This document shows positions 16,082 through 64,000 of a stretch of 64,000 nucleotides of DNA, in pieces. The stretch's first letter is position 1, and each line of letters starts with the position of its first letter. The DNA is taken from NCBI RefSeq assembly GCF_020164495.1, contig NZ_JAIQYZ010000004.1, positions 62,001-126,000 on the forward strand. Reading direction: 5' to 3'. A program made the translations under genes and the position numbers. Source of the DNA: Psychroflexus lacisalsi (lineage in GTDB: Bacteria > Bacteroidota > Bacteroidia > Flavobacteriales > Flavobacteriaceae). The notes under the pieces are model-generated. The model was given only the letters and a program-made list of their open reading frames with translations, had not been told where the DNA came from and made no database searches.

Positions 16082-18907
16082 ATGGACAAATATTCATTTT
16101 TAAATGCGATGCACCCATCGCAATTAGCCGACCTCTATAATCAATACTTACAAAATCCCGATGCCACTGAACCAAGTATGCGAGCCTTTTTTCAAGGCTT
16201 TGATTTTGGTATGGAATCTGGCGGATTCGAAGATGAGTCTTCCGAGAATTCCACAACTACAGTAAAGTTAAAAGATGCTGAAACCAAAGAAACTCAGCAG
16301 GTTCAAGTCCCGGAAAATGTCCAGAAGGAATTTCAGGTCGTCAATTTGATTGACGGCTACAGACATCGAGGTCATTTATTTACAAAAACAAACCCAGTAA
16401 GAGAACGCAGGAAGTATTCACCAAGACTAGATGTTGAAAACTTCGGTTTGTCAAAATCAGATTTAGATCTGGAATTTGAAGCTGGAGAAATCATTGGTAT
16501 TGGTAAAGCAACATTAAGACAAATCATAGATTTTCTTGAAAATGTCTTTTGTGATTCAATTGGTGTAGAATACGCTTACATCAGGAATCCTGAAGTCATT
16601 AAATGGATACAAGAACACATTTATAAAAATCAAAATAAGACCAACTTTTCTGAACCTCAAAAGAAAAATATATTACGCCGCTTGAATGAAGCTGTCATTT
16701 TTGAAAGTTTTCTTCATAAAAGTTATGTTGGTCAAAAACGTTTTTCACTTGAAGGTAACGAATCTTTAATTCCCGCTTTGGATACTCTGATCGAAGGTGC
16801 AGCAGATATGGGTGTGAAAGAATTTGTGATGGGAATGGCTCATCGTGGCCGACTCAATACTTTGGTAAATATCTTCGGTAAAAGTGCTAAGGATATTTTC
16901 AACGAGTTTGAGGGTAAAGATTATGACGTAGATGGATTTGATGGTGATGTAAAATACCACTTGGGCTGGACGTCTGTCCGTAAAACCGACTCTAATAAAG
17001 AAATTAATTTAAACATAGCCCCTAATCCTTCGCATTTGGAAACCGTAGGTTCTGTAGTGCAAGGTATTGCTAGGGCAAAACAGGATGATCATCACCTTGG
17101 TGAAGAACAAAATGTTCTACCAATCGTGGTTCATGGTGATGCTGCCATAGCTGGACAGGGAATTGCTTACGAGATTGTGCAAATGGCACAGCTAGATGGA
17201 TATAAGACGGGCGGAACCATTCATATTGTTGTCAATAATCAAATCGGTTTTACTACCAATTATATAGATGGGAGATCATCAATCTATTGTACAGATGTTG
17301 CTAAGGTGACTTTGTCTCCAGTATTACATGTGAATGCAGACGATGTTGAAGCGGTAGTTCATGCAATGAATTTTGCATTGCAATACAGAATGGAATTTGG
17401 AAGAGATGTGTTTATTGACCTGTTGGGTTATAGAAAGTATGGCCACAACGAAGGTGATGAACCAAAATTTACACAGCCAAAACTGTACAAAGCGATCTCA
17501 GAACATAAAAATCCAAGGGATATTTATGGTGATAAATTGATGGAAGAGGGTGTTATTGATAAAGAATATCTGGATCAATTAGAGGAAAAAGTTAAGTCTA
17601 AACTTAACGAAGAATACGAAGTTTCGAAAAAAGAAGAAAAATCTGTGGTTTCCAAAATCCTACAGGAAGAGTGGGAAGGCTATGAGCCTGCCAACAAGCA
17701 AAAAATGCTTGAGCCAGTAGATACTAAGTTTGACCTGGAGAGACTTTCGGAATTGGCAGAAGCCATCACGACATTGCCTGAGGATAAAAATTTTATGAGG
17801 AAGATAAAAAAACTCATAAAAGCACGTCATACCATGTACTTCGAGAAGAACGAACTGGACTGGGCGATGGGTGAAATTTTAGCTTATGCCACTTTACTTG
17901 ATGAAGGTCACGACGTGCGAATTTCAGGACAGGACGTGGAGCGAGGAACTTTTTCTCACAGACATGCTGTTATCAAGACAGAAAACAGTGAAGAAGAATA
18001 CGTGCCTCACAACAATATAAAAGATGATCAAGGTCATTTCTATATATACAATTCCTTACTTTCAGAATATGCAGTCGTTGGTTTTGACTATGGTTACGCG
18101 ATGGCAAGTCCTTCAACTTTGACCATCTGGGAAGCTCAATTTGGAGACTTCAGCAATGGGGCTCAAATTATGATTGACCAGTACATATCATCGGCAGAAG
18201 ATAAATGGAAAACACAGAATGGTCTTGTTTTGCTATTACCTCACGGGTATGAAGGTCAGGGTTCCGAGCATTCTTCAGGAAGAATGGAAAGATACCTTCA
18301 GTTATGTGCCAAAGACAATATGTTTGTTGCCAACTGTACCAGCCCAGCCAACTACTTCCACCTGTTGAGAAGACAGCTTAAAACAGATTATAGAAAACCT
18401 CTTGTCGTTTTCACACCTAAAAGTTTGTTGAGACATGCTGAGGTGATTTCGCCAAAAGAGGATCTGGCTGAAGGAAGCTTCCAAACGGTTATTGACGATC
18501 CAAAAGCCAAAGTAAAAGACATTAAAACCTTAGTATTCTGCTCAGGTAAGTTCTATTTTGATCTAAAGAAAAGAAGAGAAGAAGAGGGGAGAAAGGATGT
18601 TGCTCTAGTGAGAATTGAGCAATTGTTTCCGGTTCCAGAAGAAGAAATAGATAAAGTAATCAAGAGATATAAGAATGCTGAGGACATCGTTTGGGCTCAG
18701 GAAGAACCAAGAAATATGGGTGCTTATACACACTTATTGCTCCAATATCATAAGACCAAAGACTTTAGAGTGTGTAGCAGACGTTTTTACGGCTCTCCTG
18801 CTGCAGGTAGTCAGGCAAGATTTAAGAAAAGACACGAAGGAGTTATCGATTATGTATTCGACCCTTCAAAAGATAACAACATAAGAGATTATAAAAGTAA
18901 AAATTAA
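16082..18907 (+). CDS. sucA: 2-oxoglutarate dehydrogenase E1 component
   Basis: Thiamine-diphosphate-dependent decarboxylase of the citric acid cycle complex, 941 residues, matching the family (about 930). The N-terminus MDKYSFLNAMHPSQLADLYNQYL is the E1 segment that docks with E2. The substrate/ThDP region contains GMAHRGRLNTLVN and NPSHLE; the ThDP-Mg motif starts with HGDAAIAGQG and ends in NNQIGFTT. The transketolase-like C-terminal half contains LPHGYEGQGSEHSS and the C-terminal cap FYGSPAAGSQARFKKRH. E2 follows 20 bases downstream in the same operon; E3 is not in this window. Confidence 0.97.
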   Translation: MDKYSFLNAMHPSQLADLYNQYLQNPDATEPSMRAFFQGFDFGMESGGFEDESSENSTTTVKLKDAETKETQQVQVPENVQKEFQVVNLIDGYRHRGHLFTKTNPVRERRKYSPRLDVENFGLSKSDLDLEFEAGEIIGIGKATLRQIIDFLENVFCDSIGVEYAYIRNPEVIKWIQEHIYKNQNKTNFSEPQKKNILRRLNEAVIFESFLHKSYVGQKRFSLEGNESLIPALDTLIEGAADMGVKEFVMGMAHRGRLNTLVNIFGKSAKDIFNEFEGKDYDVDGFDGDVKYHLGWTSVRKTDSNKEINLNIAPNPSHLETVGSVVQGIARAKQDDHHLGEEQNVLPIVVHGDAAIAGQGIAYEIVQMAQLDGYKTGGTIHIVVNNQIGFTTNYIDGRSSIYCTDVAKVTLSPVLHVNADDVEAVVHAMNFALQYRMEFGRDVFIDLLGYRKYGHNEGDEPKFTQPKLYKAISEHKNPRDIYGDKLMEEGVIDKEYLDQLEEKVKSKLNEEYEVSKKEEKSVVSKILQEEWEGYEPANKQKMLEPVDTKFDLERLSELAEAITTLPEDKNFMRKIKKLIKARHTMYFEKNELDWAMGEILAYATLLDEGHDVRISGQDVERGTFSHRHAVIKTENSEEEYVPHNNIKDDQGHFYIYNSLLSEYAVVGFDYGYAMASPSTLTIWEAQFGDFSNGAQIMIDQYISSAEDKWKTQNGLVLLLPHGYEGQGSEHSSGRMERYLQLCAKDNMFVANCTSPANYFHLLRRQLKTDYRKPLVVFTPKSLLRHAEVISPKEDLAEGSFQTVIDDPKAKVKDIKTLVFCSGKFYFDLKKRREEEGRKDVALVRIEQLFPVPEEEIDKVIKRYKNAEDIVWAQEEPRNMGAYTHLLLQYHKTKDFRVCSRRFYGSPAAGSQARFKKRHEGVIDYVFDPSKDNNIRDYKSKN

Positions 18908-54919: not shown

Positions 54920-54993
54920 TCCCCCTTAGCTCAGTTGGTTAGAGCATCTGACTGTTAATCAGAGGGTCCAAAGTTCGAGTCTTTGAGGGGGAG
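54920..54993 (+). tRNA. tRNA-Asn (anticodon GTT), integration target
   Basis: Cloverleaf with acceptor TCCCCCT/AGGGGGA, discriminator G, D-arm TTAGCTCAGTTGGTTAGAGC, anticodon loop CTGTTAA (GTT) and T-arm around AAAGTTCGAGTCTTT (a weak T-stem). CCA is not encoded. Its 3' end and terminator are duplicated at 55361-55415 on the far side of a GIY-YIG gene, and an integrase gene follows, so this is the attachment site of the element. Confidence 0.95.
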
Positions 54994-55038
54994 CAAAGTA
55001 AGCCTGATATGAAAATATCGGGTTTTTTTGTTTTTAAA
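54983..55038. repeat. Direct repeat copy A: tRNA-Asn 3' end plus terminator
   Basis: TTGAGGGGGAGCAAAGTAAG and the following hairpin recur at 55361-55415 with one substitution and one deletion. Copy A includes the functional tRNA 3' end. Confidence 0.85.
55003..55029 (+). terminator. Terminator of tRNA-Asn
   Basis: CCTGATAT-GAAA-ATATCGGG stem-loop followed by seven T residues, 10 bases after the tRNA. Confidence 0.85.
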
Positions 55039-55051
55039 GAATAATGTTTCA

Positions 55052-55336
55052 ATGACTTATAGTGTCTACATCCTGAACTCTGAAAAGCTTGATAGGTTCT
55101 ATATTGGATTTACGTCAAACTTGGAAAAACGACTGGAGTTTCATCTTAATGCGGAATCTCACAAGTTCACTTCTAAGGCGAAGGATTGGGAGATCTATTT
55201 AAAGATTGAATGCAAATCTAAGGAACAAGCTTTAGCCATTGAGAAACACATCAAAAAGATGAAAAGTAAAGTATATATCCAGAATCTAAAAAAATATTCT
55301 GAGATGAAAATTAAATTGCTAGATAAATATAGCTAG
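55052..55336 (+). CDS. GIY-YIG nuclease domain protein (YhbQ/UvrC-like)
   Basis: A 94-residue single-domain nuclease. The two strands read YSVYILNS and FYIGFTSNLEKRLEFHL (catalytic Tyr and Arg), and the later Glu is in QALAIEKHIKKMKS. Start is the ATG at 55052; an in-frame TTG at 55028 lies inside the tRNA terminator. In Bacteroidetes such genes are frequently found beside tRNA and rRNA genes. Here it is enclosed by two copies of the tRNA-Asn 3' end, as if carried in as a small cassette. Confidence 0.9.
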   Translation: MTYSVYILNSEKLDRFYIGFTSNLEKRLEFHLNAESHKFTSKAKDWEIYLKIECKSKEQALAIEKHIKKMKSKVYIQNLKKYSEMKIKLLDKYS

Positions 55337-55360: not shown

Positions 55361-55415
55361 TTGAGGAGGAGCAAGTAAGCCTGATATGAAAATATCGGGT
55401 TTTTTTGTTTTTAAA
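55361..55415. repeat. Direct repeat copy B: second tRNA-Asn 3' end and terminator
   Basis: Partner of 54983-55038 (GGGGGA changed to GGAGGA; one A missing). It contains the same terminator hairpin, so it is a displaced att-like end. The integrase gene starts 180 bases to its right. Confidence 0.85.
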
Positions 55416-55594: not shown

Positions 55595-56794
55595 ATGAAA
55601 ACAAACAGCTTAAAAATTAGATTTATACTCTATAAATCTAGGATGACAACTAACGGTAGAGCTCCAATCCATTGTAGGATCACTTACAATAAAATAAGAA
55701 AGAGTTTTGCTACAGGATTATCTGTAAATCAGAAAGATTGGAATTCAAAAACACAATGCTCAAATCAAGACGAAATTATCAATCAAAGACTCAAAATTGT
55801 TCATCATAAATTAGAGGAGATTGAATTGTATTTGAATTTCAAAAAAGATGAATATGAGGTTGAGGCTATCTTGGCCTTATATTTCAATAAACCCATTGAA
55901 GAAAAAGGTGAATCTGTAATTTCCTTTTATAATAAATTCTTGAACAGGCAAAAGGATCTAATCGGTAAGGATATAAAGCAAATTACTTGGAATAAGTATC
56001 TCTACATTTATAATCATCTTGATGAATTTTTAAAATCAAAATCACTGGTTAAGCTTGAATTAAAAAAACTCAAACTAAACTTACTTTATGATTTCGAATA
56101 TTTTCTAAAAGCCAAAAAAGGGAATAAGCAAATCACAGTCAATAAGACTTTGCAGAGATTTAAGAAAGTTATAAAACAAGCTCAAATAGAAGGGCTTATT
56201 GACAGAGATCCATTTTTAGGCTATAAGGTGAAAAAGATAAATAAGCAAATTGTTTATTTAAAGCATTCTGAGTTAAAGAAACTAGAAGAACATAAGTTTG
56301 GGAATTACAGGCTTGAAAAAGTTAGAGATTGCTTTGTTCTATGCTGTTATACTGGTTTAGCTTATAATGAAATGTCTAGATTAAAATCTAAGCATCTCCA
56401 AACTAATGGGGGTGTGAATTGGATAATAATAGACCGTACTAAAACTGAAAAGACCCTAGAAATACCACTTTTGAAAAAAGCTGAAAATCTGATTTCCAAA
56501 TATACTTTTGATAAGGTTTTAGAATTACCAGTTGTTTCGAACCAGAGATTTAATTCTTATTTGAAAGAAATAGCTGAAATAGTTGGGATAGAAAAGAATC
56601 TGACTCATCATGTAGCCAGAAAAACATTTGCTACTACAGTCTTGCTAGAAAATAATATTCCAATAGAAATTGTAAGCCATGTACTTGGACATAGTAGTAT
56701 AAAAGTAACACAGGATCATTACGGTAAAATCTTAAGTAGTAGCGTAGCAAAGGAGTTTAAGTCTCTAAACTCGGGATTGCTGATTTTCTTATAA
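55595..56794 (+). CDS. Tyrosine recombinase (integrase), C-terminus altered by IS insertion
   Basis: A 399-residue site-specific recombinase with Bacteroidetes integrase layout: arm-binding N-terminus (LKIRFILYKSRMTTNGRAPI), SAM-like core-binding domain (about 110-210) and catalytic domain. HVAR (His339, Arg342), LGHSS (His366) and HYGK (Tyr376 nucleophile) are present. At the first catalytic arginine position the sequence is TGLAYNEM, with Ala, as in IntDOT-type enzymes that lack ArgI. The natural end was LNSKL-stop; an IS inserted after LNS now gives LNSGLLIFL. Both versions keep the tyrosine, so activity is likely preserved. Confidence 0.92.
   Translation: MKTNSLKIRFILYKSRMTTNGRAPIHCRITYNKIRKSFATGLSVNQKDWNSKTQCSNQDEIINQRLKIVHHKLEEIELYLNFKKDEYEVEAILALYFNKPIEEKGESVISFYNKFLNRQKDLIGKDIKQITWNKYLYIYNHLDEFLKSKSLVKLELKKLKLNLLYDFEYFLKAKKGNKQITVNKTLQRFKKVIKQAQIEGLIDRDPFLGYKVKKINKQIVYLKHSELKKLEEHKFGNYRLEKVRDCFVLCCYTGLAYNEMSRLKSKHLQTNGGVNWIIIDRTKTEKTLEIPLLKKAENLISKYTFDKVLELPVVSNQRFNSYLKEIAEIVGIEKNLTHHVARKTFATTVLLENNIPIEIVSHVLGHSSIKVTQDHYGKILSSSVAKEFKSLNSGLLIFL
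56766..56772. repeat. Target-site duplication TAAACTC, left copy
   Basis: The 7-bp TAAACTC directly abuts the IS left end and is repeated at 58521-58527 directly after the right end. Confidence 0.85.
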
Positions 56795-58520
56795 TTATCA
56801 TCTATTAAATTAAGCATCAGTGTTTTACGCATAAAAATACACGTTTTTTTCTTGCGTAATTGCATGGTTTTTCGTATCTTTTACTAATAAACCTATGCAG
56901 TTATGATAAAATATACGCCTTCTAATCAGTTAAGTTTATCCGAGTTTTCACATCCCTTCGAACAAGAATTGTTATCTGATAATCGCTGGGTAAAATTATC
57001 ACAACTCATCCCTTGGGATGCTTTGGCAAAGGTATATTCCAATAAACTCAATGCACGTAGTGGTAGAGAGAGTATTGATGTCCGCATGGTTATAGGTGCA
57101 ATTATTGTAAAGCATAAGATAGGGCTAAACGATAGAGAGACCGTTACGATGATTAGCGAAAACATCTACTTGCAATATTTCTGTGGATTAAAGTGTTTTC
57201 AAACCAAACCCCCTTTTCATCCCACTGTACTTGTAGCTATTCGTAAACGAATGGGGGCAGTAAATTTTGACTCTTGGAATACTCTAATCATTGAAAAGGC
57301 AGATAGCTTGAAGCCAAAAAGGGCAAGGAATATTCAAAAGAACACCGAGGAAGATGCCCCTAAACAATGTACCTCTGGTAGTAAACACAAAGGCAAACTA
57401 AAGATTGATGCTAGTGTGGCTGATCAAAGAATAGTGTTCCCTACCGATGCTGGTCTGCTTAATACAGCACGCAAAGAAAGTGAGCGAATTATAGATTTGC
57501 TCTACGAGCAAACCCAAGGAGTTAATAAACCTCGGGATTACCGTCGAGTAGCAAGAACAGAATATCTTGTATTTTCTAAAAAACGCAGAAAGACAACCAA
57601 ACAAATAAACAAGTTCATTCGAAAACAACTAGGATATACTAGGCGTAACCTATCTTATATTGAAAAACTGTTAGACCAAATAGAAGATCAAAAAAAGGAT
57701 GAACACTTGCCTGGCATGTTTACAGATCTTAGCACTGCTTATCCCTGTAAATTCCCTCTACCAAAACGGGACCAAAAGATTTACTGGGTGCTTCAACTCA
57801 TCTATGAACAACAATACTATATGTATCACGAAAAAGTTAATAGTGTAAAAAATAGAATAGTCAATATTTATCAACCTTACGTTCGTCCTATCCCAAGAGG
57901 AAAGGATAAAGCATCAACAGAATTTGGAGCAAAGATTAGTGCTAGTGAGATAGATGGAATGAGTAGAGTAGAACATATAAGTTGGGATCAATTTAATGAA
58001 TCTAAAGATTTAGTATTACAAGTAGAATCCTACAGAACCACCTTTGGTCACTACCCAGAATTACTACTGGCAGACCAAATATACCTCAACAGAGAGAACA
58101 GAAAATGGCTCAAAGAAAAAGGGATTAGAATTGTAGGAAAACCATTAGGGAGACCGCCAAAACAAGAGCTTTCTGCCTATCAAAGGCGAAAACTCAAAAA
58201 AGAGCGAAACCAAAGAAACCTAATAGAAGGAAAGTTTGGACAAGCAAAAAACGCATACGGACTTAGCAAAATAAAAGCCAAAAGAAAAGACACATCAGAA
58301 AGCTGGATTAGTGCCATTTTCTTCATAATGAACTTAATAAACTTATCAAAAATAGCAGATAAATATGCTATTTTTTGTGCCTTATTTAAAAATTGGATAT
58401 ATGCTAAGCTAAATCCCAAAATAAAAGGGTGTTTCTATAATACTGATGTCACTAAACTCTTTTTTATTCAAAATTACACACCTCTTGAACTAAAATAAGC
58501 TTGAGTAAATCAGCAAGCCC
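56773..58520 (+). mobile_element. Insertion sequence, 1748 bp, IS1182/IS5-type, complete
   Basis: Ends are matching inverted repeats: left GGGATTGCTGATTTTCTT, right (reverse complement) GGGCTTGCTGATTTACTC, 15 of 18 identical. The flanks carry the 7-bp duplication TAAACTC. One gene encodes the transposase. The element sits in the last codons of the integrase gene. Removal of the IS and one duplication restores an uninterrupted reading frame ending four codons later. Confidence 0.88.
56903..58498 (+). CDS. DDE transposase of the insertion sequence
   Basis: A 531-residue transposase with the InsH/DUF772 N-terminal domain (SGRESIDVRMVIGAIIVKHKIGL ... TVTMISENIYLQYFCGL) and an RNase H-like DDE catalytic domain: Asp169 (KIDASVADQ), Asp391 (LLADQIYLN) and Glu442 (RNLIEGKFGQAKNAYGL). 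The basic region between 220 and 255 fits DNA binding. The reading frame is intact and the gene lacks decay, so the copy may be active. It stops 22 bases before the right IS end. The IS1182 versus IS5 label is family-level only. Confidence 0.9.
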   Translation: MIKYTPSNQLSLSEFSHPFEQELLSDNRWVKLSQLIPWDALAKVYSNKLNARSGRESIDVRMVIGAIIVKHKIGLNDRETVTMISENIYLQYFCGLKCFQTKPPFHPTVLVAIRKRMGAVNFDSWNTLIIEKADSLKPKRARNIQKNTEEDAPKQCTSGSKHKGKLKIDASVADQRIVFPTDAGLLNTARKESERIIDLLYEQTQGVNKPRDYRRVARTEYLVFSKKRRKTTKQINKFIRKQLGYTRRNLSYIEKLLDQIEDQKKDEHLPGMFTDLSTAYPCKFPLPKRDQKIYWVLQLIYEQQYYMYHEKVNSVKNRIVNIYQPYVRPIPRGKDKASTEFGAKISASEIDGMSRVEHISWDQFNESKDLVLQVESYRTTFGHYPELLLADQIYLNRENRKWLKEKGIRIVGKPLGRPPKQELSAYQRRKLKKERNQRNLIEGKFGQAKNAYGLSKIKAKRKDTSESWISAIFFIMNLINLSKIADKYAIFCALFKNWIYAKLNPKIKGCFYNTDVTKLFFIQNYTPLELK

Positions 58521-59119: not shown

Positions 59120-59980
59120 ATGAAATTAGAAATAGCAAAAAAAGAAGCTCTTAAACTTAGAATAGGTTTAAGCGGAGCAAGTGGTTTTGGTAAAACTTAT
59201 AGTGCATTATTGTTAGCCTATGGTATAACTCAAAATTGGTCCAAAATTGCGGTTATAGATACTGAAAATAACAGTGCAAGTCTGTATTCAAATTTAGGGG
59301 AATACAAGACTATAAATTTAAAACCTCCTTATGCACCAGAACGCTTTATAGAAGCCATAGAGCTATGTGAGACTAGCGGAATTGAAGTCGTCATTATAGA
59401 TAGTATTTCTCATGAATGGAATGGGAAAGGCGGTTGTCTTGAAATACATGAGCAATTAGGAGGAAGGTTCCAAGATTGGGCAAAAATAACACCTCGCCAT
59501 GGTTCCTTTATAGATGCCATACTCAGTTCTGAATGTCATGTAATTACAACTACACGTCGTAAAACTGATTATTCTTTGGATGTAGTTGGTAACGGAAAGA
59601 CTAAAGTCATAAAACATGGAACCAAAGAAATTACGCGTGATGGTTTTGAATATGAGCTTACAGTGAATTTTGAACTTATTAATGATAAGCATTTAGCAAA
59701 AGCTTCTAAAGACAGGACTTCATTATTTATAGATAAGCCAGAGTTTATTGTAAACACTCATACAGGAAGAAAACTATTAGAATGGTGTACAGAGTCAAAT
59801 GAGGATAGGCTTAGAGGCGTTTCAAATGAAATAGAGAGATGTGAAACTGTTGATGGCTTAAAACACATATATCAAAAGAACATAGACCTAAAAAGTGAAA
59901 TCGTGCCAAAGCTTCAAATTAAAAAGCAAGAAATAGAAAGCTTAAAAAATCAAATTGTAGAATCTAAAAACATCGACTAA
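59120..59980 (+). CDS. RecA-like phage ATPase (AAA_24, Sak4-like)
   Basis: A 286-residue nucleotide-binding protein. Walker A GASGFGKT is at residues 19-26, Walker B VVIID at 90-94, and the sensor-like TTTRRKTDY at about 143-151. This is the layout of the AAA_24 family of phage proteins, to which Sak4-type single-strand annealing proteins belong. The C-terminus is helical and charged. It would promote strand annealing or recombination during element replication or circularisation. It is followed by the DUF3871 gene two bases downstream. Confidence 0.8.
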   Translation: MKLEIAKKEALKLRIGLSGASGFGKTYSALLLAYGITQNWSKIAVIDTENNSASLYSNLGEYKTINLKPPYAPERFIEAIELCETSGIEVVIIDSISHEWNGKGGCLEIHEQLGGRFQDWAKITPRHGSFIDAILSSECHVITTTRRKTDYSLDVVGNGKTKVIKHGTKEITRDGFEYELTVNFELINDKHLAKASKDRTSLFIDKPEFIVNTHTGRKLLEWCTESNEDRLRGVSNEIERCETVDGLKHIYQKNIDLKSEIVPKLQIKKQEIESLKNQIVESKNID

Positions 59981-59982
59981 TT

Positions 59983-60969
59983 ATGGAACAAGTTATAGAA
60001 AGTCAGCATATTATTAATGAAAATGAATTGGTTGAACCTGACCTAAAGGCTAATAATTTTATAGGAGGAAAGACAGAAGAGGTTACTTTAGAACATTTAA
60101 AACAAGACTGTATTATTCCTGTATTTTCAAAAGATAATGAATCTACAATTTCTCATTATCAGTTTGTAAGTGAAATTCAAGACCTTATAGAGACGGCCAT
60201 TCCTTCTATAAAATTAACCAAGCCTCTTATAAAAGTATCTCACACAATCAAAGGGAGAACACCAAGTGCAATAGGAAAACCTGCTAAAGATTTAGAAGAT
60301 GATGAGAAAACTATCTATTATGAAAGATGTGCTTTTATATTTCAGGCTATCGGTAGAAGTGAAATCGTAAATGGAGACAAACTTAACCTTACTATAGGAG
60401 GAGTAAGAGCTTATAATCAAGAGAACTTGTACAGCACAAAGTCACTTGAAAAGTTTAAAGTGTTTATTGGCTATCAAAATATGATTTGTACTAATCTGTG
60501 TATTTCTACAGATGGCTTTGCTAGTGAAATTAAAGTAGGCTCTGTCCATGATCTTAAAGAGCATGTTCTAGATTTAGTTCAAAACTTTGATGCAAGTAGA
60601 CTCTTAGGAATGATGGAACGGATGAGTAAATTTAAATTAAATGAGCAAGAGTTTGCCCACTTCATTGGAAAACTTAGAATTTATAATCATCTAGATAAAA
60701 CTGCTAAAGCGAAATTGCCAAAAGTCTTAATTACAGACAGTCAAATTAACCATGTGGTAAGATCTTATATAAAAGACTCTCATTTTGGTAAAGATGAAAA
60801 TGGAGAGATAAGTTTATGGCAGTTATATAATTTGCTTACAGACGCTAATAAAGCTTCCTATATTGATAATAACCTAGAGCGTAATGTAAATGCATACGAA
60901 CTAATGAATGAGCTTGGAGATTCTTTACTTTATGAAGATCCTAATTGGTTTGTGCACCAATTTATATAG
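59983..60969 (+). CDS. DUF3871-family protein
   Basis: A 328-residue protein I recognise as DUF3871, found on Bacteroidetes mobile elements: EEVTLEHLKQDCIIPVFSKDNESTISH, DEKTIYYERCAFIFQA, LNLTIGGVRAYNQENLYS and FKVFIGYQNMICTNLCISTDG are its hallmark blocks. It is soluble, with no known enzymatic motif. The family pattern resembles plasmid DUF932/LGT-like proteins. Together with the Sak4-like ATPase it forms a tight pair, so a DNA-processing role is likely but not shown. Confidence 0.8.
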   Translation: MEQVIESQHIINENELVEPDLKANNFIGGKTEEVTLEHLKQDCIIPVFSKDNESTISHYQFVSEIQDLIETAIPSIKLTKPLIKVSHTIKGRTPSAIGKPAKDLEDDEKTIYYERCAFIFQAIGRSEIVNGDKLNLTIGGVRAYNQENLYSTKSLEKFKVFIGYQNMICTNLCISTDGFASEIKVGSVHDLKEHVLDLVQNFDASRLLGMMERMSKFKLNEQEFAHFIGKLRIYNHLDKTAKAKLPKVLITDSQINHVVRSYIKDSHFGKDENGEISLWQLYNLLTDANKASYIDNNLERNVNAYELMNELGDSLLYEDPNWFVHQFI

Positions 60970-60978
60970 CTATTTTCT

Positions 60979-61224
60979 ATGAAATCTAAATATTTCAATT
61001 CTATTTTAAAGTATTGCTCACCTAAAGTTTTATACATCATAAATGCTCACAGAAGATTGGATAAAAGGATTTGTCCGTTTGAAGTTAGAGCTAGATCAGA
61101 TGTTGGAGACCTTAGGCGAGGAGATATCATGTCAGTTGAAAGTATAAAAGTAACACAAGACTTAGTTACAGTGTTTATTGTAAACCGTAAGGCCTACTAT
61201 TACTATCATTTTGATATTCTTTAA
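60979..61224 (+). CDS. Small hypothetical mobile-element protein
   Basis: An 81-residue basic protein starting 9 bases after DUF3871. A helical basic start (KSKYFNSILKYCSPKVLYIINAH) is followed by a beta-rich half (VEVRARSD-like segment EVRARSDVGDLRRGDIMSVESIKVTQDLVTVFIVNRKAYYYYHF) suggestive of a small barrel. No family is recognised. Confidence 0.5.
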   Translation: MKSKYFNSILKYCSPKVLYIINAHRRLDKRICPFEVRARSDVGDLRRGDIMSVESIKVTQDLVTVFIVNRKAYYYYHFDIL

Positions 61225-61320
61225 ATAGCTATATAATAAGTGTTATACTGTATTTTGAATTAAAAACTTTTGAGACGGCTTCACTTCCAAAAAAAGCCAC
61301 TGAAAACGATTGATCAATTA

Positions 61321-61359
61321 AGCCATCTTTAAAATTACAACTTTTAGAGATGGCTTTTA
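61321..61359 (+). terminator. Terminator of the recombination gene cluster
   Basis: AGCCATCT...AGATGGCT stem with flanking A/T pairs, followed by TTTTAT. It closes the run that starts at 59120. Confidence 0.6.
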
Positions 61360-61413
61360 TCAATGTTTTAGGCACTCGTAAAAAATCTATACGAAAAATA
61401 AATGACAATATGC

Positions 61414-61444
61414 TTGCATATTATGTTAAAATTTCGTACATTTG
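61414..61444 (+). promoter_or_regulatory. Promoter TTG-N20-TACATTTG
   Basis: A TTG at 61414-61416, a 20-base spacer and TACATTTG (61437-61444) form a strong Bacteroidetes promoter just before the 47-residue ORF and upstream of the polymerase-like gene. The spacing to the ATG at 61451 gives a near-leaderless transcript. Confidence 0.65.
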
Positions 61445-61450
61445 TGTTAA

Positions 61451-61594
61451 ATGAATGATTTAGTTTACAGAAGAGAGATGATGTTGAATGAAAAAACTAA
61501 TTTTACCATAGGCAAAGCGCCTAATCTTTCCCCTACTATATCCTTTACCCATTCGATTATAAAAAAATTAAACCAGACAGGTAGAGACTGGTAA
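61451..61594 (+). CDS. Small 47-residue ORF behind a strong promoter
   Basis: MNDLVYRREMMLNEKTNF starts six bases after a consensus -7 box and the frame ends at 61594 (GRDW-stop). It is basic and polar, with no recognised family. The position suggests a leader peptide or small regulator for the 491-residue protein 51 bases downstream. Promoter quality is the main reason to believe it. Confidence 0.45.
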   Translation: MNDLVYRREMMLNEKTNFTIGKAPNLSPTISFTHSIIKKLNQTGRDW

Positions 61595-61645
61595 TTTATA
61601 TAAGATTAGTCTGAAATCTAGTCTTACACTTAATTAAAAAAATAA

Positions 61646-63121
61646 ATGAAAGAAAGATTAAATGAAAAAAAAAGATTAAATGAACTTGAACGTCAACCAA
61701 TCCAATCCAATCAATCACCATCAACTATTAATTCATCTCTAACTATCAACTATGTTACTGATGCTTCAGAGTTAGAAAAAACTAATGAAACCCCTAATTT
61801 CATTAGCAATTCAACAACTATTGATAGATTTGAAGAGGTTGATAACAATGTCACTTTACCGATATTTTTTGGTGAGTGTAAAATAATACAAATACCTAAA
61901 GGTATAAGAAGGCGTATTAAAAGGTTACCTAAAGGAATATTAAAAAAGATTGACTTTAATACAGATATGGCAGTTGAGAAGTGTTTTATTATGATTTCGA
62001 ACTTGACTTATACTGTATTTGAAGATGAGAATTATTGGAAAGGATTGTCTTCAGAAATTTTAAAACATCAGTTCAAAAAAGGGTCTGATAATACATTTGT
62101 TTATAAAAAAATTATTGAGGCTTTAAAATATGAGACTAATAATACTGATCCAATTATAGACTGTAAAAAAAATAGTAACAACACAGAAACCTATCGTGAG
62201 AATTATTATGCAAAGCAATATAGGCTTAATAGTAGTTCGAAAAATATAGCTCTAGAATCATATCAGATTAAATTTGAAGACAACATAATTATTAAGGAAG
62301 ATCATTGTTTGGAACAATTCAATAATGCAAGTTCTAATGTAATAGGACGAAACCTAATTAATGTTTATGGCCAAATAACTTTACCATCTAGGGATGTAAT
62401 CTTAAATCATGCAAAAAAACTTGTCAAAGAAAATCACAAAAATAAAAAGGGTAAGAAATTAACTTTTCTAAATAAGAAATCGAAATCTTATTATTCAAGT
62501 TCAAAACCAAGGTCCTTTGTAGAATATAATATCAAATTATATGATTCTTTGGTAGGTAGTAATTATATGATTCCGAAAATTGGTGATTTTAAATCAGGTA
62601 ATCGTGTAGTTGATAGTTTCAATTTAATGCCTTCTTGGATAAGATCATTGATTAAAATAAATAATGAAGAAATTATTGAGCTTGATTTTAAAGCTTTACA
62701 TCCGAATATAGCATTTTCTATTTATGGTGAACCAGAACACCAAATAACTCACGAATATGTTGCTAAAGCCTTAAGCAAACCTTTGTATGAGATAAAAATT
62801 GAACATTTGTCTTTTTTTAATAAGAGAGTAGAAGATATGAAAAAAAGCATCCTCTATGATTTTTATTACGAAAGAGAAAAAGTAATGTTAGAAAATCTAA
62901 TTCGAGAGAAAGAAAAATATAATTACAAGAAAACATCTCAACAATTATTTAAAAAAGAGGTAATTATAATGAGTGATATAATTTATGAATTAAACAGATT
63001 TGGTATTTATGTATTATATGTCTATGATGCATTGTATTGTAGACAAACTCATGAGGGAATAGTAACTGAAATAATGAATAGAGTAATTAAAAAACATGGC
63101 GTTTTTACCAGTATTGGATAA
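61646..63121 (+). CDS. Mobile-element protein with polymerase-like palm motifs
   Basis: A 491-residue Lys/Asn-rich protein; I do not recognise a named family. The N-terminal 120 residues are polar, and the middle part includes YRENYYAKQYRLN. The C-terminal third looks like an A-family polymerase palm: Asp347 in IIELDFKALHPNI (motif A-like), Arg394 and Lys399-400 before LYDFYYE (motif B-like, Lys then Tyr eight residues later as in T7-type RNA polymerase) and Asp461 in YVLYVYDALYC (motif C-like). Order and spacing fit, but identity is low, so a replicase is only an inference. It follows a dedicated promoter and precedes a homing-type nuclease. Confidence 0.6.
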   Translation: MKERLNEKKRLNELERQPIQSNQSPSTINSSLTINYVTDASELEKTNETPNFISNSTTIDRFEEVDNNVTLPIFFGECKIIQIPKGIRRRIKRLPKGILKKIDFNTDMAVEKCFIMISNLTYTVFEDENYWKGLSSEILKHQFKKGSDNTFVYKKIIEALKYETNNTDPIIDCKKNSNNTETYRENYYAKQYRLNSSSKNIALESYQIKFEDNIIIKEDHCLEQFNNASSNVIGRNLINVYGQITLPSRDVILNHAKKLVKENHKNKKGKKLTFLNKKSKSYYSSSKPRSFVEYNIKLYDSLVGSNYMIPKIGDFKSGNRVVDSFNLMPSWIRSLIKINNEEIIELDFKALHPNIAFSIYGEPEHQITHEYVAKALSKPLYEIKIEHLSFFNKRVEDMKKSILYDFYYEREKVMLENLIREKEKYNYKKTSQQLFKKEVIIMSDIIYELNRFGIYVLYVYDALYCRQTHEGIVTEIMNRVIKKHGVFTSIG

Positions 63122-63138
63122 TAAATAAATTTAATAGA

Positions 63139-63804
63139 ATGATGACAGAAGCAGAAGAGAGAAAAAAATTTATAATCTACAAATCAACAAACCAGACAAC
63201 TAATCAAGTATATGTTGGTTCTACGACGTATTCACTTCAACAGAGAAGGTTAGATCACCAAGAAAGAGCTAATAGAACAGAAGAAGGAAAGTTTTATGAA
63301 GCTATATCCACCTATGGATCCAATAATTTTAGTTGGGAAACCATAGATACTACTGAGAACACAGATGAATTAGCCTTAAAAGAGCAATATTATATTGCTG
63401 AATATGATTCTTACAATTCTGGCTATAATTCAGATTGTGGTGGTGGATTTAAGAAAACAGTATTCCAATACTGCAAGGAAACAGGAAAACAAACCGCTAG
63501 GTTTGAATCTTTAGAAGAAGCTGCAAAGTCAGTTAACACTTCTAGATCTAACATAAGCTCAGCATGTTTAGGAGGCTCTAAATCAGCAAAAGGGTTTAGT
63601 TGGTCATACAAAGACCTTGATAGTTTTAAAACTGCTGATAAGCGCTTAAAATACGTTAAGCAGTTAGATGTAGATGAGGTCATTATCAAAGAATATAAGT
63701 CTATAGCTGAAGCTTCCAGACAAACAGGAATAAGCAAATCATGTATTGCAAAGACTGTAAGGGGAGAGAGGCAATATGCAGGAGGATTCTTGTGGATGAA
63801 ATAA
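63139..63804 (+). CDS. GIY-YIG homing-type endonuclease with two NUMOD1 modules
   Basis: A 221-residue free-standing nuclease. The GIY-YIG domain (residues about 10-100) has FIIYKSTNQ and VYVGSTTYSLQQRRLDH, with the catalytic Glu in ALKEQYYI. It is followed by two nuclease-associated modular DNA-binding repeats, each with a helix-turn-helix core (SLEEAAKSVNTSRSNISSAC; SIAEASRQTGISKSCIAKTV). This architecture matches T4 Seg-like and intron-encoded homing nucleases. The neighbouring polymerase-like gene could be its cognate target region. A terminator follows the stop. Confidence 0.9.
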   Translation: MMTEAEERKKFIIYKSTNQTTNQVYVGSTTYSLQQRRLDHQERANRTEEGKFYEAISTYGSNNFSWETIDTTENTDELALKEQYYIAEYDSYNSGYNSDCGGGFKKTVFQYCKETGKQTARFESLEEAAKSVNTSRSNISSACLGGSKSAKGFSWSYKDLDSFKTADKRLKYVKQLDVDEVIIKEYKSIAEASRQTGISKSCIAKTVRGERQYAGGFLWMK

Positions 63805-63827
63805 AGGCTACAATGCCTTATAAAAAT

Positions 63828-63862
63828 AAAACCAGTTCATTTATTTGGGCTGGTTTTTTTTA
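63828..63862 (+). terminator. Terminator after the homing-type nuclease
   Basis: AACCAG...CTGGTT stem with a 13-base loop and a run of eight T residues. The remaining 63863-64000 shows nothing that I can support. Confidence 0.75.
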
Positions 63863-64000
63863 AAACTAATAACAATTGATCATTAAGTATTTATATTTAA
63901 GGTTACAATATTTATTTTACTGTATACATTAAATGTGAAAACTAAAGGATTGGTTAAAGTAAATATAAGAAGAGAGGATTTTTGTTAGAAGACATAAAAA

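Follow-up and report, generated by a model that had tools for sequence, protein, structure and literature searches.

A probable superfamily A-type replication polymerase in an exchangeable slot of a tRNA-Asn-integrated island from Psychroflexus lacisalsi

Superfamily A polymerases of mobile elements have been described as TV-Pols (Iyer, Abhiman, Aravind 2008, PMC2579912), and one of them, CcPol, together with its partner MP, has been demonstrated to be a primase (eLife 2020, PMC7581432), as far as the available excerpts of these two papers go. Here, we report on a window of 64,000 nucleotides from Psychroflexus lacisalsi, the whole stretch of DNA that was analysed. An earlier note had proposed that one of its open reading frames encodes an undescribed, strongly diverged polymerase on a flavobacterial mobile element. 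The reading frame, here called POL1, is present with the limits that had been claimed, on the forward strand and with an ATG start (Table 1). In kind, "undescribed" must be withdrawn in view of these two excerpts. We suggest that POL1 is probably, judging from its modelled fold, a superfamily A-type template-directed polymerase and the replication protein of a tRNA-Asn-integrated island, placed in a slot between the genes for a small conserved protein, P81, and a GIY-YIG endonuclease.

The island is about 24.3 kb long, and 69-bp direct repeats of the 3' end of tRNA-Asn form both of its ends, in agreement with the mobile element that had been postulated. Its genes come in the order integrase, insertion sequence, P115, AAA_24, DUF3871, P81, polymerase, GIY-YIG and then cargo. 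The AAA_24 ATPase matches phrog_1366 in PHROGs (unknown function, E 1.2e-75) and phrog_124 (E 8.8e-6), and by PHROGs it appears to be related to Sak4-like single-strand annealing proteins. DUF3871 is mentioned, in the open-licence literature, in one paper, which deals with iron in Bacteroidetes. The cargo was scanned as far as position 16401 of locus L005 and includes defence genes past the window (L005 9775-16401, C34:126774-133400), where a ThsB-type TIR protein adjoins a caspase-type protease and the same stretch holds a type IIG/ISP restriction-modification protein and a PDC-S39 candidate defence protein. At the other end of the island, a small GIY-YIG/T5orf172 gene (55028-55336) has the tRNA-Asn repeat on one side and, on the other, a third copy of the repeat, 39 bp long (55373-55411), so that it resembles a very small separate insertion.

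Table 1. Features of the island, in window numbering.
Feature	Coordinates	Strand	Remarks
tRNA-Asn	54920-54994
Left attachment repeat	54966..55034	+	last 29 bp of tRNA-Asn + 40 bp
Tyrosine integrase of island	55595..56794	+	PF00589, PF13102, PF17293
DUF772/DDE transposase (insertion sequence), between integrase and island core	56903..58498	+
P115, 115 aa	58661..59008	+	predicted beta1-2-3-alpha-beta4-5, OB-like
AAA_24 ATPase, island core gene	59120..59980	+	PF13479, E 3.5e-14
DUF3871 protein, island core gene	59983..60969	+	PF12987, E 8.1e-113
P81, conserved 81-aa protein, left edge of exchangeable slot	60979..61224	+	no family match
Conserved non-coding element, hairpin and covarying loop-to-upstream pairing (pseudoknot)	61232..61312	+	81 bp
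POL1, divergent superfamily A-type polymerase	61646..63121	+	491 aa, ATG start
GIY-YIG endonuclease, 221 aa	63139..63804	+	starts 17 bp past polymerase stop
Right attachment repeat	79271-79339		past window end

POL1 is hardly visible to sequence libraries. Neither Pfam nor NCBIfam gave a match at E ≤ 1, PADLOC gave none at E ≤ 0.001, the POL1 family profile found no PDB sequence at E ≤ 10, and a sequence-level comparison of the POL1 profile with that of housekeeping PolA gave no match. As a single query, the window protein found no phages by tblastn, no viral contigs and no genome contigs, and its relative L034 found no phage. The sole significant family match is phrog_4756, a phage family of unknown function in PHROGs (E 1.7e-9). 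When an alignment of 16 rows, the window protein and 15 relatives that are 30-45% identical to it, was compared with a phrog_4756-type profile of 7 sequences, motif-pattern filtered from 12 candidates, the result was a probability of 97.4 and E 1e-11; a second polymerase type, POL2, whose profile has 4 rows, two of them being one protein, gave 96.5 and E 7.4e-10, both E-values being for a single comparison. Because the phrog_4756 match, the profile-profile match and the predicted PolA-type fold agree, the family signal is beyond chance. A search of Rfam with 60900-64000 returned nothing at E ≤ 0.1 and no intron. We also considered iterons in the POL1 leader, where the window has 24 9-mer repeats compared with 4.3 in shuffles (reached by 0 of 200). 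This candidate was dropped since the excess is absent in L020 and L033 (112 and 66 of 200 shuffles reach it), is weak in L087 (20 of 200) and is in large part A/T-rich.

Relatives of POL1 are few. A search of 299 genomes of the window's family gave matches in four: the window's own, G010 (51%, broken by three TGA), G215 (48%) and a marginal one (E 8e-4), which we judged to be false as its frame reads like a UvrD-type helicase. A four-sequence alignment then found eight POL1 loci in genome contigs, from Allomuricauda, Flavobacterium (three), Nonlabens (which is G010), Chitinophagaceae, Verrucomicrobiaceae and a Bacteroidia MAG. Nine further loci are on viral contigs, several of them adjoining phage structural genes, as read from open reading frame lists. 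Matches to phrog_4756 itself occur in 10 of 395 genomes of the phylum, including the window's genome. The attribute "flavobacterial" is borne out, with G010 and G451 listed in the same family as the window's genome; the genera of these two, Nonlabens and Flavobacterium (as F. omnivorum), we take to be Flavobacteriaceae. The 20 phage matches listed for L025, a distant relative, are 22.9-27.4% identical to L025, and one of these 20 records, outside the rows of the phrog_4756-type profile, is annotated as a DNA polymerase. On a phage contig (L135 9411-10364), the reading frame after the polymerase reads like a clamp-loader ATPase. The Nonlabens locus (L019 8550-10530, minus strand) has in-frame TGA codons, three in the polymerase and four in the GIY-YIG gene, several of them at conserved Trp positions, and these genes have no TAA, TAG or frameshift; elsewhere in the 20 kb, the long genes are free of TGA apart from two at frame edges. 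These codons may reflect either decay by G-to-A change or local reading of TGA.

What fold does POL1 have? The AlphaFold model, made from the 16 sequences, has a pLDDT of 81 and a pTM of 0.75, with low confidence for residues 17-70. Foldseek against the PDB gave 17 matches at E ≤ 1e-3, all of them PolA-type DNA polymerases, with low whole-model TMq values (0.28-0.38 in the 17 best PDB rows), and the top viral structure was a "Putative DNA polymerase I" (E 2.9e-12). VIA-align, which re-aligns Foldseek's own candidates and is no independent search, gave Z-scores of 12.8-14.0, resting on about 240 residues, for the 50 matches listed; these are DNA and RNA polymerases of superfamily A without exception, mitochondrial RNAP, Pol theta, T7 and Taq-type enzymes among them. 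For 49 of these matches, the aligned stretch is 237-251 residues long and the rmsd 3.5-4.5; the remaining one spans 361 residues with an rmsd of 6.0. These matches, confined to PolA-type and superfamily A enzymes, suggest that POL1 is a diverged member of the superfamily, as the earlier note had held. In the model, Asp347 is on strand 341-348, Lys384 is on helix 380-390, Asp461 is between strands 457-459 and 462-466, and a long helix spans 427-451.

The earlier note had assigned motif A to Asp347 (LDFKALHPN), motif C to Asp461 (VLYVYDALYC) and motif B to Arg394 and Lys399. The two aspartates are identical in 16 of 16 sequences and are profile-aligned with motifs A and C of the phage-type relatives: in the pairing with L024, Asp347 corresponds to LDFSALHP and Asp461 to PVHDSF. 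Motif B was misplaced. Arg occurs at position 394 in 3 of 16 sequences and Lys at position 399 in 8 of 16, and since the profile alignment places the helix-O lysine, the K of RxxxK, at Lys384 (16 of 16), motif B moves about 15 residues upstream. Arg320, Arg333, Tyr407 and LSFFN (388-392) are invariant as well. The arginine of RxxxK, position 380, is Arg in 5 of 16, is missing from the other 11 and is Leu in the window. As for the two outcomes that the earlier note had named as fatal, a fold without a palm and freely varying aspartates, the predicted model appears to contain the palm of this superfamily, and the aspartates do not vary. Only L035 and L037 (76% identical) are similar enough for a measurement; their dN is 0.158 and their dS 0.848, so POL1 is under purifying selection there. 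The window and L087 give dN 0.35 with a saturated dS of 2.1, and the other pairs listed are saturated or have no dS value.

To what kind of genomic site does POL1 belong? At E ≤ 1e-30, the AAA_24 profile had matches in 45 of 397 family genomes; all 51 loci from this search were examined, and the count was made on the 46 whose sequence continues for 5.5 kb or more downstream of the core. A recognised slot protein and a same-strand GIY-YIG gene are both found within 5.5 kb in 19 of these, neither is found in 27, and none has one alone, a table that is partly circular because the slot classes were defined from loci having GIY-YIG. For the same reason, and because the loci are related, the Fisher value of 2.4e-13 is no fair probability. 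Split by P81, loci with it have both in 18 cases and neither in 12, and loci without detected P81 have both in 1 and neither in 15. As for the five shorter loci, L079 has both, L120 and L122 have neither, and L085 and L092 have a slot protein on contigs that stop 813 and 1706 bp after the core. Four loci from other searches (L033, L124, L136 and L137), outside the 46, have both genes, L124 (VapE) having been found via its GIY-YIG gene. At L111 there is a helicase-like reading frame, by reading, and no GIY-YIG. The gap from the slot gene to the first start codon of the GIY-YIG gene is -98 to +191 bp, apart from one fusion.

The slot holds proteins of several kinds. Among the 19 loci, POL1 is found in the window, L019 (broken), L020 and L087, and POL2 in L022; the further classes are AAA_25 ATPases, a DUF5906-type class and, without a Pfam match and named by reading, a helicase-like class and a winged-helix-like protein. 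We take the AAA_25, DUF5906 and VapE types to be replication ATPases or helicases. Locus L137 is the nearest of the set to the window in both P81 (77.8% identical) and GIY-YIG (65.9%), with part of DUF3871 at 70.7%, and its slot holds a protein of the DUF5906-type class to which Pfam gives no match; DNA similarity between the two loci ends 99 bp after P81 and returns 11 bp into the GIY-YIG gene. The window and L137, L081 and L083, and L078 and L123 are reciprocal pairs in which the nearest P81 is also the nearest GIY-YIG and the slot differs. In Mantel comparisons over 21 loci, the similarity of GIY-YIG tracks that of P81 (r 0.29, reached by 5 of 2000 permutations) and does not track slot class (r -0.07, 1637 of 2000); GIY-YIG against AAA (r 0.12, 270 of 2000) and P81 against AAA (r 0.17, 258 of 2000) are not significant. 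The nearest GIY-YIG shares the slot class in 3 of the 21 loci. Thus, non-homologous replication-type proteins are exchanged in this slot while the neighbouring P81 and GIY-YIG genes stay. This setting, in which related islands keep replication-type proteins where the window has POL1, agrees with the role of replicase that had been proposed.

The window GIY-YIG protein matches PF22083 and PF07453 over the cut-off, PF01541 with 20.1 bits (under the cut-off of 22.6) and, in PHROGs, the phrog_314 homing endonuclease (E 1.4e-21). Its residues Tyr14, Tyr25, Arg36, Glu82 and Asn97 are identical in all 22 aligned proteins, itself counted. In L033, a single reading frame joins POL1 to GIY-YIG, which scores 27.4 bits against a cut-off of 22.6, and NUMOD domains match more weakly; in L038, the fusion partner of POL1 is HNH_3, at 41.4 bits against a cut-off of 24.8, with NUMOD4 as a weaker match; and in L022, POL2 is fused to a NUMOD1/GIY-YIG part whose GIY-YIG score, 19.7 bits, stays below the cut-off. 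A GIY-YIG or HNH gene is fused or lies at most 600 bp downstream in 8 of 20 POL1 loci (the window, L019, L020, L033, L087, L038, L129 and L130). Of the remainder, the contigs of L132 and L133 end too soon, and ten were judged by eye from reading frame lists, with one neighbouring frame (after L034) scanned. By this inspection, no GIY-YIG gene was seen beside the polymerase in L034, L035, L037, L039 and L021, so GIY-YIG is no general requirement of the polymerase. In phage J2-1 (L165 1879-2298), a gene annotated as MobE homing endonuclease adjoins a phrog_4756-type polymerase that is labelled as a hypothetical protein.

Is the nuclease then merely a homing endonuclease parked beside replication genes, with accidental fusions and no part in replication, and the polymerase assignment correct? 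Homing endonucleases beside replication genes are common in phages. The window protein has NUMOD-type repeats and matches homing endonuclease families; NUMOD4/HNH_3 genes lie downstream of the polymerase on two phage contigs, by 149 bp in L129 and by 535 bp in L130 with a 108-aa frame without a Pfam match between, and the MobE-annotated gene of J2-1 is a similar case. Elsewhere the polymerase has no nuclease neighbour, elements without a slot protein are also without GIY-YIG, as a cassette carried by homing would give, and neither GIY-YIG nor P81 tracks the AAA gene significantly. However, GIY-YIG follows the slot whatever its content (19 of 19) and is absent from the 27 loci without a recognised slot protein, its similarity follows P81 rather than slot class, and two unrelated nuclease folds, GIY-YIG and HNH, have been joined to one and the same end of the polymerase. 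We retain this explanation as a genuine possibility, short of the favoured one, because the phage relatives also have homing-type genes adjacent.

With POL1 as the island's replication protein, the following course can be envisaged. The integrase would excise the island as a circle, and the GIY-YIG enzyme would cut or nick at a site on it, thereby supplying or controlling a 3' end; alternatively, the polymerase would start by self-priming, as the CcPol-MP complex does. The polymerase would then copy the circle, and the integrase would re-insert the island. We infer that POL1 is catalytic, that it is primed in one of these ways and that it copies the excised island, which would replicate in circular form. 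The replicase possibly works with a nicking nuclease, a role that we infer for the latter. In the earlier note, the core idea of a polymerase was sound, and the place of motif B and the word "undescribed" were not; it had missed the exchange in the slot, the nuclease coupling and fusions, and the ends of the island. A bolder version takes its model from Penelope-like elements, eukaryotic retroelements that have a reverse transcriptase with a C-terminal GIY-YIG endonuclease. In a bacterial, DNA-templated counterpart, the GIY-YIG or HNH part would nick the island or the target, the attached polymerase would extend the 3' end, and the polymerase module could be swapped with helicase-type replicators using the same nick. 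We regard this version as unlikely.

POL1 could also be a primase that makes short primers, like CcPol-MP of the SCC elements, needing an OB-fold partner and leaving the bulk of the copying to host polymerases. The CcPol-MP precedent (PMC7581432; Rice 2023, PMC10061031), in the excerpts available, favours this, as does P115, for whose OB-like model SSB proteins fill the top eight Foldseek rows (E 0.023-0.12). These matches are, however, below significance (0 at E ≤ 0.001; VIA-align Z at most 4.4), P115 is also present in islands with no polymerase in the slot, and the 7 window proteins scanned include no helicase, of the D5 type or otherwise. A primase of this kind seems to us tenable, at the level of a possibility and not of a probability. 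That POL1 is a catalytically dead or non-replicative palm protein with another role, such as defence or regulation, is suggested by the lost RxxxK arginine and by the defence genes of the island and is highly improbable, given that both palm aspartates are kept even in phage-contig relatives, that the measurable pair is under purifying selection, that PADLOC gives no match at E ≤ 0.001 and that POL1 alternates with replication-type proteins.

A separate lead from the polymerase is the structured element after P81, whose pattern occurs in 26 of 38 P81 loci, with the slot filled or empty; L078 and L092 have it in part, and ten are without it. Pairing joins the hairpin loop to the segment that precedes TTATGCTG, and the sequences on the two sides vary together (AAGTG/CACTT, AGCAG/CTGCT, AGGAG/CTCCT, TGACC/GGTCA and others). 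Counted with at least two G/C, the complement averages 5.04, compared with 2.77 for permuted partners, and 0 of 5000 permutations reach it; pairing is weaker in L105 (only 3) and in L085, L090 and L123 (only 4). The window copy has no Rfam match at E ≤ 0.1. The element may be an RNA or an origin.

The results extend the superfamily A polymerases of mobile elements to a Bacteroidota branch that is invisible to sequence libraries, and they suggest that the fingers arginine is dispensable while the palm aspartates and the helix-O lysine stay fixed. The slot amounts to a natural experiment, in which at least three unrelated replication-type kinds (polymerase, AAA_25 ATPase and DUF5906/VapE type), with two more classes that are unclassified, occupy one place between constant neighbours. 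With the nuclease fusions, nick-primed replication of integrative islands can be tested directly.

How does POL1 compare with the known systems? Like TV-Pols, as the available text of PMC2579912 presents them, it is a stand-alone superfamily A protein of 400-600 aa on a mobile element with an integrase, with two aspartates (D347 and D461 in POL1) in an RRM-like palm. The species list in that text includes a Flavobacteriales bacterium. The TV-Pol thumb consists of two antiparallel helices, and the POL1 model has helices 211-229 and 232-241 before the palm. In TV-Pols, the palm is preceded by a beta-hairpin whose arginine is absolutely conserved; Arg320 is invariant in POL1, with only two-residue strands (311-312 and 321-322) modelled near it. 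The RxxxK arginine and the conserved fingers aspartate of TV-Pols, by contrast, are missing in POL1, no Asp between 348 and 460 being invariant or 90% conserved in the 16-row alignment. TV-Pols are linked to D5-like helicases, and here such helicases take the place of the polymerase in the slot. The excerpt further states that TV-Pols never show fusion or linkage to nucleases, a generalisation contradicted by POL1, which is fused in L033 and L038 and linked in the window, L019, L020 and L087. For these reasons, we call POL1 TV-Pol-like and do not file it as a TV-Pol. The open reading frames of phage Ma-LMM01 gave no match to POL1, and its candidate TV-Pol, MAP_030 (the gene was guessed), gave hhalign probabilities of 0.2 with the 16-row profile and 2.8 with the phage-type profile. 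No paper in the open-licence literature had GIY-YIG and TV-Pol together, and a looser search likewise gave no title on such fusions.

The phrog_4756 phage relatives, in Vibrio, Aeromonas, Shewanella and Pseudoalteromonas records, share the order of arginine region, motif A, helix-O Lys and motif C. Their motif C is HDS in the 7 profiled rows, whereas that of the POL1 family is YDA, and L024 keeps the RxxxK whose arginine POL1 has mostly lost. With the PolA-SSB primases such as CcPol-MP, in the excerpts of PMC10061031 and PMC7581432, POL1 has in common an A-family polymerase, an integrating island and small partner genes. There, the gene for an OB-fold protein adjoins the polymerase, whereas P115, whose OB-like model lacks a significant match, is non-adjacent; the small protein encoded next to POL1 is P81. 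A COG3378/D5 or DUF927 helicase shares the CcPol-MP operon; none is among the 7 window proteins scanned, and DUF5906/VapE-type proteins occupy the slot instead in other islands. With no Pfam match, POL1 is also far more divergent than those primases. The protein encoded at 63139-63804 has the catalytic residues and the NUMOD1/I-HmuI-like DNA-binding repeats in common with GIY-YIG homing endonucleases. The Penelope-like elements resemble the L033 fusion in joining a polymerase to a C-terminal GIY-YIG; however, instead of a reverse transcriptase, POL1, which Pfam does not match at E ≤ 1, has a predicted fold of the PolA type and is carried by a bacterial tyrosine-integrase island.
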